A DNA stretch of 64,000 nt from an uncultured Opitutia bacterium (GTDB lineage Bacteria; Verrucomicrobiota; Verrucomicrobiia; Opitutales; Opitutaceae): positions 1 through 64,000 of the forward strand of contig CAIUWA010000005.1 of the NCBI GenBank assembly GCA_903902745.1, given 5' to 3'. Shown here one piece after another: positions 3,039 to 60,148 of the stretch. Position 1 is the first letter of the stretch. Each line of letters opens with the position of its first letter. Below the pieces are notes generated by a model that saw only the letters and a program-made list of their open reading frames with translations, searched no databases and was not told the origin of the DNA. The translations under genes and the position numbers were made by a program.

Positions 3039-3068
3039 GCGGTGGATCCCCATGACATTTCCGAGAAT

Positions 3069-3138
3069 GTGGGAGGGGCTTGATGCCCCGAGCTTTGAGA
3101 CGGACTGATGAAGCGTCGGGGCAGCAAGCCCCTCCCGC
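3069..3138. repeat. REP-like inverted pair, GTGGGAGGGGCTTGATGCCCC
   Basis: The left unit begins GTGGGAGGGGCTTG and the right unit is its inverse (CAAGCCCCTCCCGC) after a spacer of about 30 bp; each unit contains its own GGGGC...GCCCC hairpin. The layout is that of a REPIN between convergent-neutral genes. Confidence 0.65.
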
Positions 3139-3186
3139 ATTTTCTCTGCTGGCCAGCGGATGGAGGAAGCACTCAATTGATATCCC

Positions 3187-5061: not shown

Positions 5062-6207
5062 TCAGGTCGCCGGCTTGATGGCGTCGGGCTTGAAGGTGAT
5101 GTACAACGTGAAGGTGGTCATCCCGCGCACCGTGCTCGGCTTGGGGATCTTGGCTTCCTGCACTGACGGCAGCTTCTCGAGCGCCATGCGGTAGACTTCC
5201 ATTTCACCGGAATTCGGGGTCTGCGCATCAATCTGCAGGCTGGTCACGCCGTTGGTCGTGTTCGAGAGGATCCGCGTAAAAATAATGCTGCCGCGCTTTT
5301 CCGCCCCCCCGATCATCTGCACCATTTCCAGCGGCAACAGTCGCTTGGTGGAGAGTTCCTCGATCCGATTGGCGAAATCATTCGCCGCCATGACCCTCGA
5401 CACCAGCGGCGCCTGGACACTGATGCGGGTCGCCTGGGTCTTGAGCCAGAAGGCGCGCCCGCCGATGACGGCAAATTCGGCCAATCCCAATAGCACCAGC
5501 GCCGCGGCACAGCCCGCCAGCACCCGCCACAGCAGGAGGTCGCGGGCCTGGCTGCGACGCAGGGCCGCCAGTTCCGCCTTGTCCCGCACGTCCAGCGCCG
5601 CAGTCCCCGCCACGGGCAGGCGGGCGGAGAATTCACCGGCGCGAAACAGGAAGGCCTTCTCGTCGGGGGACACCGTGATTTCGGGCTGCGCCGTGAGATC
5701 GATGACCACGCGGCTGCCGCCCGCGGCCCGCAGCAACTCGTCGCGTGTCAGCGCCCGGTCGGCCTCGGTCGCATCCGGGGCCAGCGTCCGGGTCAGCACC
5801 ACTGTGGGCACAGGCCCGCTTTCCCAGTAAACCATGGTGAGCCCGTCGGCCGTGGGGAAAAGCAAGGCGGTGGCGGGTTCATGCTCCACCCCGAGCACGG
5901 CGGCGAAGGCTGGCGCCACGAGTTCCGCCTGCTTCCAGTCCGCGGTCTGCTCAGCAGTGAAACGCTTCCGATAGGAGGCGAAGATCAGCGCCTGGGGTGC
6001 TCCGGGGGCCCAATAATAGCCGTGATAAAGCTGCGCCGGGGGAAACGGCGAGAGCGTTTCCAGGGCGAGTTCCACCTGCGCGGCGACATCAGCCGCGGTG
6101 GCCGCACCGTCCACGGACACCACGCGCACAAAAAACCGATGGTCCGGCAGCAGCACGACCCGGGGGGCGGGCGGCCCGGATTTGATAAAATCAATCAACT
6201 TGGTCAT
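5062..6207 (-). CDS. gspL: Type II secretion system protein L-like
   Basis: A 381-residue bitopic protein. Residues 1-200 form a cytoplasmic domain of actin-like layout (starts MTKLIDFIKSGPPAPRVVLL), residues about 218-245 a membrane helix (LLLWRVLAGCAAALVLLGLAEF) and the rest a periplasmic domain with PilN/GspL-like pattern (QIDAQTPNSGEMEVYRMALEKLP). GspL recruits the secretion ATPase GspE to the membrane. It overlaps the gspK stop by 4 bp (ATGA), indicating translational coupling. No GspE or GspF gene is in this window. Confidence 0.7.
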   Translation of the reverse strand: MTKLIDFIKSGPPAPRVVLLPDHRFFVRVVSVDGAATAADVAAQVELALETLSPFPPAQLYHGYYWAPGAPQALIFASYRKRFTAEQTADWKQAELVAPAFAAVLGVEHEPATALLFPTADGLTMVYWESGPVPTVVLTRTLAPDATEADRALTRDELLRAAGGSRVVIDLTAQPEITVSPDEKAFLFRAGEFSARLPVAGTAALDVRDKAELAALRRSQARDLLLWRVLAGCAAALVLLGLAEFAVIGGRAFWLKTQATRISVQAPLVSRVMAANDFANRIEELSTKRLLPLEMVQMIGGAEKRGSIIFTRILSNTTNGVTSLQIDAQTPNSGEMEVYRMALEKLPSVQEAKIPKPSTVRGMTTFTLYITFKPDAIKPAT

Positions 6208-7556
6208 TCGGCGGGTTTGGGCGGGGGGGCAACGGGTGTGGGGTCATTATTCTCGCTAATTTCAAGGACTGTAAAGGGGTAGTTCAGACTGGCGGCACTG
6301 GTGCCGTTGGCGTTCGCCGCGCCGGCAGCGGCGCCGCCGCGTCCGCCCGCCCGCGCACCCGGGTTGTTGGCGCGGGCGGCATTGTTGGCTGGGGCGGCAT
6401 TCGCAGTTGGCGTCGGATTCGTCGTGGCAGACGCCCCGGAGGCGGGGTTGGTTGCATTTGTTTGCACGGTTTGCGCCGCCTGCTGGCCGGGAAGGGTGAC
6501 AACCGTGTTGAGCTGGTAGACGGCCCGGCCGTCGTGAACGGTGATGTGAATCCGGAGCGCGCTGATCTGCGTGCCGAAAACCGCCGGGTTGCCCTGGCCG
6601 AGGATCGTCGCGGCATCGGTCACCGAGCGGAAATACTGCGGACCCTTGGCTTCATAGGCACCGGCGCCACTGACATAATCATTCAGGTGTTGCTGCTGGG
6701 TCGCGTCGAACTGGCCCAGGGCCGCCAACACATCGGGGCGCGCACTATTAATGTTGGGCTGACGGTAACTCAGCAGCGAAAAGGTGTCGGCAAAACGGTG
6801 CCACAGTTCGTTGGGCCGGCCGTCCTCGCCGTAAAACATGTCCCGGGCGACATCGATCGCCGCCAGTTCGTCGAAGGAACGCAGCGAACGGCCGGGCGGG
6901 GCGTAAGGCAGGGTCGCCTGGTCGTAGTCCGGCGTGAAGGTGCCGGTCGGCGTGTAGTTCGGCTTCATCCAGCCCAGCAAGGCGTCCGCCAGCTTCTGGG
7001 CGTCCAGCGGCTGGATCTCCCAGACATCGAAGACGGCCAGCAGCGTGGCGTTGTCGACATTCGGCAGCGAGATTTTGCCGCTCTCGTCCTCAAACGCCAC
7101 CTCCACCGTGTGGCCTTCCCCGGGCTTCCAGTCGGCAAAGGTGAGTGGGTCGCCCCAGCCTTCCGCGGGACTGCGCAACGCCCCGACCGTCTGGTTGAAG
7201 CACGACAGCACGGAGAGCGTGACCTCGAGCGCCGAATAAGCCTCCGACCGCAAGCGACGGGCGTCGGCCTCCCGCGCCGCGACAATCAAATCGCTGCTGG
7301 CCTTGTTGAGGAAGGCCGTGAGCGCGAATGCGGTGAGGACCAGCGTGACGAGGACAATCACCAGCACGGAGCCCTGCATGGCGGATCGGCGACTGGGGCT
7401 CAGAGGTGGAGCAAGTTGTCCCCAACCCGCCGGATCGAGGCTGCGGCTTCGCCGCAACGCGTTGGGGACAACGCGTTCCACCCTCGAGCCCGGCACCGCA
7501 GCGAGGCCAGGGCTGTACGTATTGCCACCGGGGAGAAATTGGACGCGCGCTTTCAT
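6204..7556 (-). CDS. gspK: Type II secretion minor pseudopilin K-like, with repeat-derived leader
   Basis: A 450-residue protein. The prepilin helix is MQGSVLVIVLVTLVLTAFAL (from about residue 60), followed by a GspK-type body (GKISLPNVDNATLLAVFD, QKLADALLGWMKP, helix-hairpin-helix-like NINSARPDVLAALG) and an Ala/Asn/Gly-rich stretch (about residues 355-430) before a short C-terminal strand. GspK caps the pseudopilus tip. Residues about 24-54 are encoded by a palindromic repeat (VERVVPNAL). A shorter start at 7379 would give the leader MQG only; the ATG at 7556 lies 3 bp from the gspJ stop and is kept here because the neighbouring pseudopilins also have long leaders. Confidence 0.75.
   Translation of the reverse strand: MKARVQFLPGGNTYSPGLAAVPGSRVERVVPNALRRSRSLDPAGWGQLAPPLSPSRRSAMQGSVLVIVLVTLVLTAFALTAFLNKASSDLIVAAREADARRLRSEAYSALEVTLSVLSCFNQTVGALRSPAEGWGDPLTFADWKPGEGHTVEVAFEDESGKISLPNVDNATLLAVFDVWEIQPLDAQKLADALLGWMKPNYTPTGTFTPDYDQATLPYAPPGRSLRSFDELAAIDVARDMFYGEDGRPNELWHRFADTFSLLSYRQPNINSARPDVLAALGQFDATQQQHLNDYVSGAGAYEAKGPQYFRSVTDAATILGQGNPAVFGTQISALRIHITVHDGRAVYQLNTVVTLPGQQAAQTVQTNATNPASGASATTNPTPTANAAPANNAARANNPGARAGGRGGAAAGAANANGTSAASLNYPFTVLEISENNDPTPVAPPPKPAE
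7405..7482. repeat. AACGCGTT-type palindromic element, copy 2, inside gspK leader
   Basis: The left end GGTGGAGCAAGTTGTCCCC is mirrored by the right end GGGGACAACGCGTTCCACC; an extra hairpin GCGGCTTCGCCGC sits in the spacer. It is open in the gspK frame and so contributes residues to the pre-protein leader if the upstream ATG is used. Confidence 0.8.
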
Positions 7557-21874: not shown

Positions 21875-22690
21875 CTAGCCGGGAGTCGCGGCGTAGGCAG
21901 GTTTGAATAACCACCGGTAGAAAATTCCCCCCACCTGCCCGCCCGCCAGCGGTGCCACGACGTAGACCGTCAGCCAGCCCCAGCCGTTGACGGTGAACGG
22001 CACCGAGCCCCACCCCGCCAGAGCGCTCCAGATGCGTGGCCCCAGGTCCCGCGCCGGGTTGAAGCCCGCCTGCGTCAGCGGGGCGAGCAACGAGATCAGC
22101 AGCGTGATGGTCAGCCCGATCGTCGCCGCCGTCAGCTCACGCGGCCGCGCGGCGTTCCGTTCGTCCGTCACCGCGAGGATCACGAGCACCAGGATGGCGG
22201 TGCCCAGGGCCTCGATGAAAAACGCGGTTCCCGGCGTGACGAGCGCCCGTGCCGCCTCGGTCAGCGGCCGGCCGCCCGGATTCGGAAAGAATTCCCCGAA
22301 AACCATCGCGCTCGCCTCGCTGCCGGCGACGCCCCGCACCAGGCCGTGGGCCGCCTCGAAGGCGGCGAGCGGGCCGGCAAACACCGCGTGCAGCACGGCG
22401 GCCCCGGTGAAGGCGCCCGCGAACTGGGCCGCGATATAGGCGGGCACGCGCCCCACGGGAAACCGGCCGCTCGTCACCAGCGCGCAGGTCACGGCCGGAT
22501 TGAGATGCGCGCCACTCAGCGCACCTGTCAGGTAGATCGCCGTGGCGATGCCGAGGCCCCAGACGATGGCCACCTGGAAAATCCCCACCTGCGCCCCGGT
22601 CAGTACCGCCGCCGCCACGGACCCGCAGCCGAAGAACACCAGCAGGAACGTGCCGGCGAACTCGCCGATGAACCAGGCGGGCGGCTTCAT
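21875..22690 (-). CDS. Aquaglyceroporin of the arsenic operon (AqpS/GlpF-like)
   Basis: A 271-residue MIP channel with six hydrophobic helices and two pore loops: SGAHLNPAVTCA and QAGFNPARDLGPR. The Asp after the second NPAR is typical of glycerol/aquaglyceroporin channels. The start overlaps the arsC stop by 4 bp (ATGA), and arsR lies upstream; the same set (ArsR, aquaglyceroporin, ArsC) in Sinorhizobium meliloti uses the channel to let arsenite leave the cell after reduction. That role is inferred here. Confidence 0.88.
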   Translation of the reverse strand: MKPPAWFIGEFAGTFLLVFFGCGSVAAAVLTGAQVGIFQVAIVWGLGIATAIYLTGALSGAHLNPAVTCALVTSGRFPVGRVPAYIAAQFAGAFTGAAVLHAVFAGPLAAFEAAHGLVRGVAGSEASAMVFGEFFPNPGGRPLTEAARALVTPGTAFFIEALGTAILVLVILAVTDERNAARPRELTAATIGLTITLLISLLAPLTQAGFNPARDLGPRIWSALAGWGSVPFTVNGWGWLTVYVVAPLAGGQVGGIFYRWLFKPAYAATPG

Positions 22691-23199
22691 CGCTTCAACC
22701 CTGCCTCGCCCGCGAGCTTGAACTGCTCGCCCACCCCGCGGACCGCCACGGCATCAAGCAGCTGGGCGTCGGAAAACGCGCAGAACAGTTCCACCCGCCG
22801 CGCAATCTGTGACGCCACATTCACGAAGAACCGGAATTTTTCCTCCTCCGTGCCTTCAGCCGCGGCCGGGTCGGGCGAGCCCCAGTGTGCGATCATCGGC
22901 TGGCCGGGCCAGACCGGGCAGGCTTCCTTTGCATGGTCGCAGACGGTGATGACGAAATCGAACTTCACGCCCTTGAATTCATCCCACGACTTCGAGCGCG
23001 CGGCACCGGCGTCGAGGTTGTATTTCTCCCGGAGGGTGCGGATCGCCAGCGGGTTCACTTTGCCGGTGGGATGCGAGCCGGCGCTGAACACCTCGAAGCG
23101 GCCCTTGCCCTTCGCCCGCAGCAAATATTCGCCGAGGACGGACCGGGCGGAGTTGCCCGTGCACAGGATCAGGACCTTGAAGGGATTTTTCGGATTCAT
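22687..23199 (-). CDS. arsC: Arsenate reductase, LMW-phosphatase type
   Basis: A 170-residue cytosolic enzyme reducing arsenate to arsenite. N-terminal P-loop VLILCTGNSARSVLGEYLL has Cys-X5-Arg; the general acid region follows FVITVCDHAKEACPVWPG with the two further cysteines (VCD...ACP) needed for the thioredoxin-coupled mechanism. Translationally coupled to the downstream channel gene. A palindromic element separates it from arsR. Confidence 0.92.
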   Translation of the reverse strand: MNPKNPFKVLILCTGNSARSVLGEYLLRAKGKGRFEVFSAGSHPTGKVNPLAIRTLREKYNLDAGAARSKSWDEFKGVKFDFVITVCDHAKEACPVWPGQPMIAHWGSPDPAAAEGTEEEKFRFFVNVASQIARRVELFCAFSDAQLLDAVAVRGVGEQFKLAGEAGLKR

Positions 23200-23230
23200 G
23201 GAAGGGAATTTTTCCGGGTGCTGCGTTCGC

Positions 23231-23323
23231 GGTGGAACGCGTTGACCCTAACGCGTTGTTTGGCTCTGTCTGGCATCAAGAGCGGACAGAGGCTTTCAGC
23301 GCGTTGGGGACAACGCGCTCCAC
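23231..23323. repeat. AACGCGTT-type palindromic element, copy 3, overlapping the arsR tail
   Basis: Left end GGTGGAACGCGTTGACCC, inner GTTTGGCTCTGTC, right end GTTGGGGACAACGCGCTCCAC. The right half is inside the arsR reading frame and encodes its last residues (VERVVPNAL); the left half lies in the arsR-arsC spacer. Confidence 0.82.
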
Positions 23324-23677
23324 GTCGGTACAGCCGCACGGGCTGGTGTCGGAGAATTTCGGCGCGAGCAGCTTCAACCGCGCGAGATCTTTTTTAAACA
23401 CCGGGTCCTCCCGCGCGCAATCCTGCAGGCAGGCCAGGTTGGCCCGCAGTTCACGCGAGGGCTTCGCCGGCAGTTCGTAGATCATCCAGTTGCCCTCCCG
23501 CTCGCACTCCACCATCCCGCGGGCGCGCAGGTAGGCGAGGTGCTTGGAGATCTTTACCTGCGGCTCGCGCAGGATTTCCTGGAAGTGGCAGACGCACAGC
23601 GGGCCCGCCGCCAGCACGTTGAGCACGCGCAGCCGCGTGAGATCGCAGAGGCATTCATAGATTTTAACCAGCTTCAC
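23276..23677 (-). CDS. arsR: ArsR-family arsenic repressor
   Basis: A 133-residue winged-helix repressor. IYECLCDLTRLRVLNVL opens the fold; the metal site CVCHF sits on helix 3 and ISKHLAYLRARGMVE is the recognition helix. The last ~16 residues come from a palindromic repeat. GTG at 23677 chosen because GAGGAA lies 12 nt upstream and the product then starts as the family does; a TTG at 23713 would add 12 residues but has no ribosome site. It probably represses arsC and the channel gene, which follow on the same strand, and releases on binding As(III). Confidence 0.88.
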   Translation of the reverse strand: MKLVKIYECLCDLTRLRVLNVLAAGPLCVCHFQEILREPQVKISKHLAYLRARGMVECEREGNWMIYELPAKPSRELRANLACLQDCAREDPVFKKDLARLKLLAPKFSDTSPCGCTDVERVVPNALKASVRS

Positions 23678-23685
23678 GCGGAATT

Positions 23686-23707
23686 CATATTCCTCGTTGG
23701 GAATATG
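23686..23707. promoter_or_regulatory. Candidate ArsR operator
   Basis: Perfect 8-bp inverted repeat CATATTCC-TCGTTG-GGAATATG, 9 bp upstream of the GTG start of arsR and within the spacer to the divergent aquaporin gene. The location, symmetry and AT-richness fit an autoregulatory ArsR site. Confidence 0.5.
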
Positions 23708-23846
23708 ATTCAAGCCCCGAACAAAGGTGTCACCGGAATGTCACCGAAGCCCGATCCTGCTCCTGCCTGGGATGCCTGCGGTCAAATGACGCGTTGTATT
23801 TCCATCGCTGATGGATAGGCAGAAGGCCTTCACCGCTTCAAAACCC

Positions 23847-24464
23847 ATGAAAAAATACCTCGTTGAGTTCATCGGCACGTTCTTTCTCGTCTTCACAGTC
23901 GGCATGACCGTCCGGAGCGGCGCGCCGCTCGCTCCGCTGGCCATCGGCGCCTCGTTGATGGTCATGATCTTCGCCGGCGGGCATGTCTCCGGCGGACACT
24001 TCAATCCCGCGGTTACGCTGGCGGTGTTTGTCCGCGGAAAGCTCGAGACGAAGGACGTCGTTCCCTATTGGGTGGCGCAGTTCCTTGCCGGCCTCGTCGC
24101 CGCGCTCATTGTCACCTTCCTGATCGGACCCAAGCCGGCCAGCCCCGCCCTGCATGGCACGATTCCCTCCGCGATCGTTGAGTTCCTCTTCACGTTTGCC
24201 CTGGCCTGGGTGGTCCTGAATGTCGCCACCCACAAGAGCACCGCGGGCAATTCCTTCTACGGGCTCGCCATCGGTACCACGGTGATGACCGGCGCCATTG
24301 CCGTCGGCGGTGTCTCGGGCGGGGCCTTCAATCCCGCCGTGGGCTTGGGCGTGTTTACGATGGGGCTCGAGTCGGCGAAACAACTCGGGGTTTATCTCGG
24401 GGCGGATCTCGCCGGCGGCTTGGTCGCCGCCCTCACTTACAAAGTGGTGCACGGCGCGGACTAA
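23847..24464 (+). CDS. Aquaporin, AqpZ-like
   Basis: A 205-residue MIP channel starting MKKYLVEFIGTFFLVFTVG, with both pore loops GGHFNPAVTLA and GGAFNPAVGLG and six hydrophobic helices. Lacking the Asp of glycerol facilitators, it is closer to water channels. Divergent from arsR and sharing its upstream region, so it may also answer to ArsR; this is inference. The nearer ATG (23847) is used; an ATG at 23811 would add 12 residues. Confidence 0.88.
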   Translation: MKKYLVEFIGTFFLVFTVGMTVRSGAPLAPLAIGASLMVMIFAGGHVSGGHFNPAVTLAVFVRGKLETKDVVPYWVAQFLAGLVAALIVTFLIGPKPASPALHGTIPSAIVEFLFTFALAWVVLNVATHKSTAGNSFYGLAIGTTVMTGAIAVGGVSGGAFNPAVGLGVFTMGLESAKQLGVYLGADLAGGLVAALTYKVVHGAD

Positions 24465-32427: not shown

Positions 32428-32473
32428 AGCGGACGCGGCCTTCAGACCATATCCGTTGGACCGAGGGTCGAGT

Positions 32474-32543
32474 GTAGGAGCGGCTTTACGCCGCGATGGT
32501 TCACTCCTCAGGCCCCATCATCGCGGCATAAAGCCGCTCCTAC
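32474..32543. repeat. GTAG-type REPIN, family GTAGGAGCGGCTTTACG, copy A
   Basis: A 70-bp inverted pair: begins GTAGGAGCGGCTTTACGCC and ends with its inverse (AAGCCGCTCCTAC). Each unit contains a GCGGC...GCCGC hairpin. The second copy at 53449 is also exactly 70 bp. Confidence 0.85.
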
Positions 32544-32589
32544 AGTTTCAAGACGATCCTTTGCAGGAATCCTGCACCCGCTCATTCCC

Positions 32590-33009: not shown

Positions 33010-33095
33010 GGGATCACCCTGTTCCTTCCTGTCACCGGCGCAACCGCTCAGTTGGATCACGGATGATTCATGCCAGTCGCCCGCTGCTTTTACCC

Positions 33096-33174
33096 GTAGG
33101 GCCGGACCTAGGTCCGCGCCTTGGCCGGATGTCCATGACGCGGCGAAGAGGCATCGACCAAGGTCGAGCCCTAC
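33096..33174. repeat. GTAG-type REPIN, family GTAGGGC-GACC, copy A
   Basis: Starts GTAGGGCCGGACCTAGGTCC and ends in the inverse of a second unit, TCGACCAAGGTCGAGCCCTAC. The two units share a frame (GTAGGGC, then a GGACC/GGTCC or CGACC/GGTCG hairpin) but differ in sequence. The same two units occur in swapped order at 50809. Confidence 0.85.
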
Positions 33175-33281
33175 CGACCAAGGACAAAAGGATTGGGCGA
33201 TTGGCATCAAGCCTTGGTCACGCGAACCGCATGGCGGAAGCCAGGGCACGTCCGTGCTGAATCCGACCTTTGGAGCGGCTC

Positions 33282-36306: not shown

Positions 36307-36334
36307 AGTGGAACGCGTTATCCCTAACGCGTTG
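36307..36334. repeat. AACGCGTT-type palindrome, single unit
   Basis: GTGGAACGCGTTATCCC followed by TAACGCGTTGG: one half of the family seen in full at 23231 and 52333; no partner unit is visible downstream. Confidence 0.65.
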
Positions 36335-36489
36335 GTTCGTAAGAGGCACCATCTCCGCCCCTCACGCTGGAATCGGCCCGCTGCATTCATCCACCCGGAT
36401 GCTTCCGTCCGGGGCCTGCGTATTACTACCCACGCTCTCCCGTAGTTGTACCGATGAAACACCCCAGGACGTTTTGCTACTATGGGCGC

Positions 36490-48726: not shown

Positions 48727-48853
48727 GGTGGAATGCGTTGCGGTGCCCGCCGAAGCATCCAGCGAAGGCTGGGGCCCCAACGCGCGGGGAACCTCCGTCT
48801 CTCCTCCCATTCGGGCGGAGCCTTGCAGCGCGTTGGGGACAACGCGCTCCACC
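48727..48853. repeat. AACGCGTT-type palindromic element, copy 5
   Basis: GGTGGAATGCGTTGCGG at the left and GTTGGGGACAACGCGCTCCACC at the right, with a long ~85-bp spacer holding GGGGCCCC and CGGGCGGAG segments. Fills the divergent gap between the DHS-like and ABC-F genes. Confidence 0.75.
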
Positions 48854-50797: not shown

Positions 50798-50808
50798 TCC
50801 TTTTCCTG

Positions 50809-50881
50809 GTAGGGCTCGACCTTGGTCGATGCCTCTCTGTCATGGACGCTTGGCGAGGCGCGGACCAAGGTCCGGCCCTAC
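50809..50881. repeat. GTAG-type REPIN, family GTAGGGC-GACC, copy B
   Basis: GTAGGGCTCGACCTTGGTCG at the left and the inverse of GTAGGGCCGGACC at the right: the same two units as at 33096 in the opposite order. 73 bp, between convergent ABC-F and phosphorylase genes. Confidence 0.85.
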
Positions 50882-50939
50882 GAGTAAACGCATCGGACGA
50901 TTGGTATAACCGCCAACTACGGACTTTGTCGCAACTCCC

Positions 50940-52332: not shown

Positions 52333-52425
52333 GGTGGAACGAGTTGTCCCCAACGCGTTGTTTGGCTCCGTCGACGCCAGACCTCCGACGGACGTTCCAG
52401 CGCGTTGAGGTCAACGCGCTCCACC
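52333..52425. repeat. AACGCGTT-type palindromic element, copy 6
   Basis: GGTGGAACGAGTTGTCCCC then CAACGCGTTGTTTGGCT at the left, and GTTGAGGTCAACGCGCTCCACC at the right. Shares the inner GTTTGGCTC with copies 1 and 3. Immediately next to the hairpin at 52429. Confidence 0.82.
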
Positions 52426-53184: not shown

Positions 53185-53448
53185 GGCAGGGGATCGGGCG
53201 GATGAAACGGGCACAAAAAAACCCGGCTCGGGAGGGAGTCGGGCTCGACGTGGGAAAAAAACGGGCGGCATCGCCGCCTTGCGCCATCAGCGCATCACCA
53301 TCGTCGGGCCGTCCCGCGCCAAATAACGTGTTTGGCTACCGTCACGCGGACGGAGGCGAATACACGGCACTGGACGGAAAGATGCATGACGCGAGGTGAT
53401 GCGGACTCCGCGCGCGGCGCGCAAGCGGATTTTTCCGGCGGTCAATTT
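53185..53448. other. Intergenic gap upstream of the methyltransferase
   Basis: About 260 bp with no gene. A fragment reading ACGTGTTTGGCTACCG near 53328 resembles the inner part of the AACGCGTT-type repeat. No clear promoter boxes seen. Confidence 0.4.
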
Positions 53449-53518
53449 GTAGGAGCGGCTTTACGCCGCGATTGGTGGCATCGCGGGACGAACCATCGCG
53501 GCGTAAAGCCGCTCCTAC
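53449..53518. repeat. GTAG-type REPIN, family GTAGGAGCGGCTTTACG, copy B
   Basis: GTAGGAGCGGCTTTACGCC at the left and the inverse AAAGCCGCTCCTAC at the right; 70 bp, same length and ends as the copy at 32474, with a different spacer. Confidence 0.85.
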
Positions 53519-53527
53519 ATCCGAACC

Positions 53528-59957: not shown

Positions 59958-59968
59958 AATGTATAATG

Positions 59969-60084
59969 GTAGGGCGCGGACTCCGTTCCGCGCCGGGCAA
60001 AAGGGGAAGAGGCCCATCTGAGAACCAGGGACTGCGGCTGGACTCCAGTGACGTTCCCGGCGGGGAACGGAGTCCCCGCCCTAC
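59969..60084. repeat. GTAG-type REPIN, family GTAGGGCGCGGACTCCG
   Basis: GTAGGGCGCGGACTCCGTTCC at the left and the inverse GGAACGGAGTCCCCGCCCTAC at the right around a ~65-bp spacer. Each unit holds its own GCGCGGA...TCCGCGC-type hairpin. 116 bp, between co-directional genes. Confidence 0.8.
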
Positions 60085-60148
60085 CGGAGTCGGACATCAC
60101 TCAGCCGGCGGCTTGTCAGCCGGGGCCTACCGCGCCTAGCCTGCGCGC

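Follow-up and report, generated by a model that had tools for sequence, protein, structure and literature searches.

A REPIN from an Opitutaceae family served by a REP-associated tyrosine transposase (RAYT) very probably inserted at the arsR 3′ end within the window of this study, i.e., the whole stretch of 64,000 nucleotides analyzed, giving ArsR a presumably tolerated C-terminal tail and leaving a hairpin spacer between arsR and arsC. REP and REPIN were defined according to PMC3116915, PMC2817692, and PMC3733652. The palindrome found at arsR is a REPIN; two REP stem-loops, inverted relative to each other and headed by GTGG, make up this non-autonomous mobile element.

The element is 92 bp long (23232–23323), starts with GTGG and ends with CCAC. 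The initial annotation had placed it at 23231–23323 and was right within one base; position 23231 is one extra G. Both ends are formed by inverted arms of 24 nt, an A-type REP arm on the forward strand (GTGGAACGCGTTGACCCTAACGCG, 23232–23255) and a G-type REP arm on the reverse strand (GTGGAGCGCGTTGTCCCCAACGCG, 23300–23323), which flank an inner spacer and are both close to GTGGARCGCGTTGWCCCCAACGCG. The isolated G-type arm folded as DNA at −10.7 kcal/mol. The transcribed strand of the whole element folded at −55.9 kcal/mol, compared with −29.3 kcal/mol for shuffled sequences (z −7.6). Its fold and its copies in the genome exclude a chance origin of the repeat.

The arsR ORF is on the reverse strand at 23276–23713 and was identified by matches to HTH_5 and HTH_metalloreg and by orthologue alignments, many of which begin at GTG 23677 (codon 13), the probable true start. 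Its stop codon (23276–23278) falls within the element. Thus, the last 15 residues, VERVVPNALKASVRS, and the TGA stop (48 nt, 23276–23323, reverse strand) are element sequence. In the orientation and frame taken, the G-type arm would read VERVVPNAL, and TGA as the sixteenth codon would end ArsR. The remaining 44 nt of the element (23232–23275) are located in the 76-nt spacer between arsR and arsC (23200–23275, reverse strand). The proposals in the initial annotation that the repeat supplies the C-terminus of ArsR and that its other half lies in this spacer were therefore both borne out. The arsC gene (22687–23199, reverse strand) encodes a low-molecular-weight phosphatase-type arsenate reductase that matched LMWPc and scored below the cut-off of TIGR02691. 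An intrinsic terminator was also considered for the arsR-arsC spacer and rejected, as no terminator-like site was found there. An operator-like dyad, ATCATATTCC-N6-GGAATATGAA, was observed at 23684–23709, immediately upstream of the likely GTG start of ArsR, and a similar dyad also precedes arsR of the same-genus genome G001. Moreover, two genes for MIP (aquaporin-type) channels bracket arsR-arsC, one downstream on the same strand (21875–22690) and the other divergent (23811–24464).

The arsR-arsC junction was compared with those of relatives by searching three genomes of the genus and 200 genomes of the family for ArsR and translating the tails of the 29 best orthologues. Three of the 29 had no arsC within the stretch fetched. 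Among the 26 with a nearby arsC, the arsC start was 4–15 nt past the arsR stop in 21, and the computed gaps of the other five were odd, with arsC located elsewhere or its start misplaced. The median spacer in the relatives was 7 nt, vs. 76 nt in the window. The orthologue of G001, which was 70–78% identical, had an unrelated tail and a 7-nt gap to arsC. Excision of exactly 92 bp would give a native end, TDRERSTRKNSLP, followed by a TGA that overlaps the ATG of arsC (ATGA). The empty site, however, could not be placed to the base, and only one of three boundary choices gave a native stop before arsC.

These comparisons are consistent with the following sequence of events. In the lineage of this genome, a RAYT would have placed a REPIN copy at the arsR 3′ end, and the last native codons of arsR would have been replaced by 15 codons of the element and its own TGA. 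The tail would be a passenger behind the conserved core of the repressor. Given that the DNA-binding region and the cysteine residues are upstream of the insertion, the predicted tail is probably tolerated. The main side effect would be the change of a short junction between the arsR stop and the arsC start into a 76-nt hairpin spacer. With a spacer of 76 nt, vs. the median of 7 nt in relatives, arsC may plausibly be affected, and its translational coupling to arsR may have been weakened or lost. As the native end of arsR is uncertain and dependent on the boundary chosen, this loss of coupling is an inference.

It is also conceivable, albeit unlikely, that selection kept the tail and the hairpin, with the REPIN tuning the expression of arsR-arsC through mRNA stability or reduced translation of arsC, or with the tail altering ArsR. 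The strong hairpin that spans the arsR stop and the roughly tenfold longer spacer would fit such a role, and REPs have been proposed to be post-transcriptional elements (PMC3733652). However, the insertion was seen in a single genome, so that its conservation cannot be demonstrated, the element is one among many scattered copies, and the spacer has no terminator signature. Slightly more doubtful still is that the REPIN rewired the ars operon, its own TGA and hairpin separating arsC translation from arsR and its tail changing the repressor. If this were true, REPINs of the arsR family would be mobile modules that bring a stop codon and a spacer to operon junctions.

The passenger reading, in which the element is one dispersed copy of a repeat, also draws on its distribution. 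A search of the same genome (3.29 Mb in 52 contigs, 98% complete) with the element returned 58 matches, some of which are one copy counted on both strands. Other near-full-length copies were mostly 77–82% identical, with E values down to 3e-19, and at least 39 distinct places of related sequence were tabulated. The view of the repeat as a mobile palindrome is thus supported by at least 39 dispersed places in this genome and by 29 orthologues without the insertion. The window itself contains a REPIN copy upstream of a thioredoxin-like gene (2010–2102), one within the gspK pre-leader (7406–7481), one without an overlapping ORF of coding-like composition (52334–52424), a degenerate copy with one clear arm (48780–48852), and a single REP arm (36308–36337). 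The family was also found in 28 of 61 Opitutaceae genomes, and the REP arm is present in the related genome G005.

The copies are mostly extragenic, and a likely gene product is overlapped at about four of the 39 places. For instance, an esterase-like protein (L030) contains an in-frame copy, VERVDLNALRRS, that follows the start and precedes the signal peptide, with the homology to orthologues beginning downstream, and the element supplies the stop codon of a PrmC-like gene (L003). Where a likely gene is present at the other places, the overlapping part of the ORF is mostly an upstream extension and the gene start is further downstream. That codon 16 is always an in-frame TGA was rejected as a rule for the family, as such a stop was found in only 6 of 18 listed copies, in the orientation with the G arm first.

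To define the conserved structure, 23 copies were aligned and hairpins within each arm were compared with a palindrome formed between the two arms, using 500 shuffles. Most copies had GTGG heads, in keeping with GTAG-type REPs, which are short imperfect palindromes with a GTAG/GTRG/GTGG head at one end. Their two arms were usually of opposite A/G type, and the two REPs, inverted and separated by a spacer, gave the arrangement of a REPIN. For the intra-arm hairpins, 93.8% of the cells were paired and 23 cells were compensatory, as exemplified by columns 71/90 with 12 A-U and 11 G-C pairs. The intra-arm covariation was 0.182, vs. 0.114 in the shuffles, none of which (0 of 500) reached the observed value. 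The inter-arm palindrome showed no excess of covariation in this alignment, as 456 of 500 shuffles reached the observed value, and a long cruciform was therefore rejected as the conserved structure. Thus, what is conserved is the individual REP stem-loop, two of which make up the REPIN. The inverted ends and the long hairpin would also be compatible with a different class of short repeat, such as a conventional MITE bounded by transposon terminal repeats or a repeat of the ERIC type. This is very improbable, however, given that each arm is a covarying hairpin of its own with a GTGG head, that visual inspection of the flanks of 22 copies showed no target duplication, and that RAYT genes are flanked by the same arms.

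VERVVPNAL was absent from all 29 ArsR orthologues, including the one from the same genus. These orthologues terminate 1 to about 25 residues past the aligned conserved core, and many end directly after a CGC-like cysteine motif. The initial annotation had named orthologues ending in the same residues without any repeat as the observation that would speak against it, and none was found. Given the 29 orthologues without the tail and the short arsR-arsC gaps of relatives, the ArsR tail is, by this sequence comparison, an insertion product. That the tail is native to ArsR and resembles the repeat by coincidence, or is ancestral and was lost elsewhere, has a negligible probability and is already refuted by the comparison with these orthologues and by a DNA match to the repeat that runs past the arsR stop codon into the spacer, the only point in its favor being that some orthologues also carry unrelated tails, the longest with about 20 extra residues.

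Similar to the arsR copy, the gspK copy at 7406–7481 encodes VERVVPNAL in the same frame. The gspK ORF (6204–7556, reverse strand, T2SSK_1st) has a leader of 61 amino acid residues before G^SVLVIVLV, and the copy lies in the non-conserved leader, downstream of the conserved start codon and upstream of the predicted site of prepilin cleavage. The homology to GspK orthologues mostly begins at residues 46–60. In several relatives, gspK begins at or just past the gspJ stop, and the leaders before G^SVLVIVLV are shorter and variable. As the peptide of GspK is ahead of the predicted cleavage site, it should be missing from the mature protein; it is probably translated and then cut off by the prepilin peptidase. 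Thus, the proposal that the repeat donates the same peptide to two unrelated proteins holds at the level of the ORFs, and of these two only ArsR would retain the peptide in the finished protein.

The sole Y1_Tnp/RAYT match in the same genome is flanked by another REP family, GGTAGGGCGCGGACTCCGC. Arms of a third repeat family, GGTAGGGCGCGGACTCCG, which was observed in the window at 59968–60085 and in L074 at 1424–1458 and 1913–1947, flank this RAYT. About 70 Y1_Tnp loci of relatives bearing the element were inspected, and none was flanked on both sides by the REP of the arsR element; several of them show other inverted repeats. Only a search that began with loci carrying the exact arm revealed the cognate RAYT; this arm occurs in at least 115 stretches of public genomes, the matches listed bearing Verrucomicrobiota names, mostly Opitutae. 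RAYT-like genes were located between copies of the arsR-element REP at L181, L209, and L259, with partial cases of this arrangement at L198 and L239. RAYT genes with the same flanking arms were also found at L288, L289, and L290, the last being the same locus as L318. The best relatives of the L181 protein were from G044, G017, and the same-genus genome G002 (57% identity), and all three are flanked by the arsR-element REP. The L181 protein matched REP_Tyr_transpos of NCBIfam with an E value of 2e-20 and 73 bits, which is below the cut-off of 80, and a Pfam search with it gave no match. The HUH motif MPDHxH and WxYxRRNP with its conserved Tyr were invariant in three sequences. Judged from these flanking arms, the REP family of the arsR element is served by a candidate cognate RAYT in related Opitutaceae genomes, including one of the same genus. 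The cognate RAYT was not found in the genome with the arsR insertion (98% complete, 52 contigs), whose only RAYT is 39% identical to the L181 protein and of another family, nor in G001, which has none. Its absence from the former may reflect a loss of the transposase there or a gene in the missing 2%.

Additional repeats were observed in the window. A second REPIN-like family, TGTAGGAGCGGCTTTACGCCGCGAT, is found at 32473–32544 and 53448–53519, with a diverged copy at 3063–3144; it belongs to a Verrucomicrobiota genome and is much like REPs listed for Pseudomonas, e.g., TGTAGGAGCGGCCTTG (PMC2817692). Inverted repeats of a further family, marked by GGTAGGGCTCGACCTTGGTCGATGCCTCT and by arms of the GGTCCG type, are found at 33070–33175 and 50808–50907.

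The REPIN in the tail of ArsR is a clear yet fairly ordinary case of a kind already described in related bacteria; what is new is the polarized arsR case and the candidate cognate RAYT. One insertion set against 29 orthologues without it makes a cleanly polarized case in which a REPIN adds a tail to a regulatory protein. Tying this Opitutaceae REP family to a candidate RAYT makes REP recognition by the enzyme directly testable. Moreover, REPIN copies mislead the annotation of both gene starts and gene ends. Rickettsia palindromic elements (RPE) are palindromic mobile DNA that adds an in-frame peptide to unrelated proteins. By description, the arsR element is similar to RPE in its in-frame peptide; different from RPE, most copies here are outside genes.

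Similar to the GTAG superfamily and GTAG-20 of Opitutus terrae, which often occur as inverted dimers, the arsR element has a short stem-loop, a terminal tetranucleotide, an inverted-dimer arrangement, and a link to RAYT (PMC3733652). According to the same paper, the GTAG-20 elements of O. terrae mostly begin with GTGG and intragenic GTAG repeats are most numerous in this bacterium. It also describes intragenic REPs, stop codons carried by REPs, and overlaps with N-termini, many of which reflect misannotated starts, a pattern matched by the gene-overlapping copies of this study. The organism and the target gene are different, however, and the likeness to GTAG-20 is one of description (PMC3733652). 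Similar to the RAYT/TnpA-REP proteins (PMC2817692), RAYTs of the L181 type have the HUH motif MPDHxH, the conserved Tyr, and flanking inverted REPs; they differ in forming a diverged Opitutaceae branch below the NCBIfam cut-off. Finally, dispersed inverted REP doublets with a spacer and a link to RAYT are shared with the REPINs of Pseudomonas fluorescens SBW25 (PMC3116915). Different from SBW25, which has over a thousand REPs, the genome studied here has tens of places, and no cognate RAYT was found in it.
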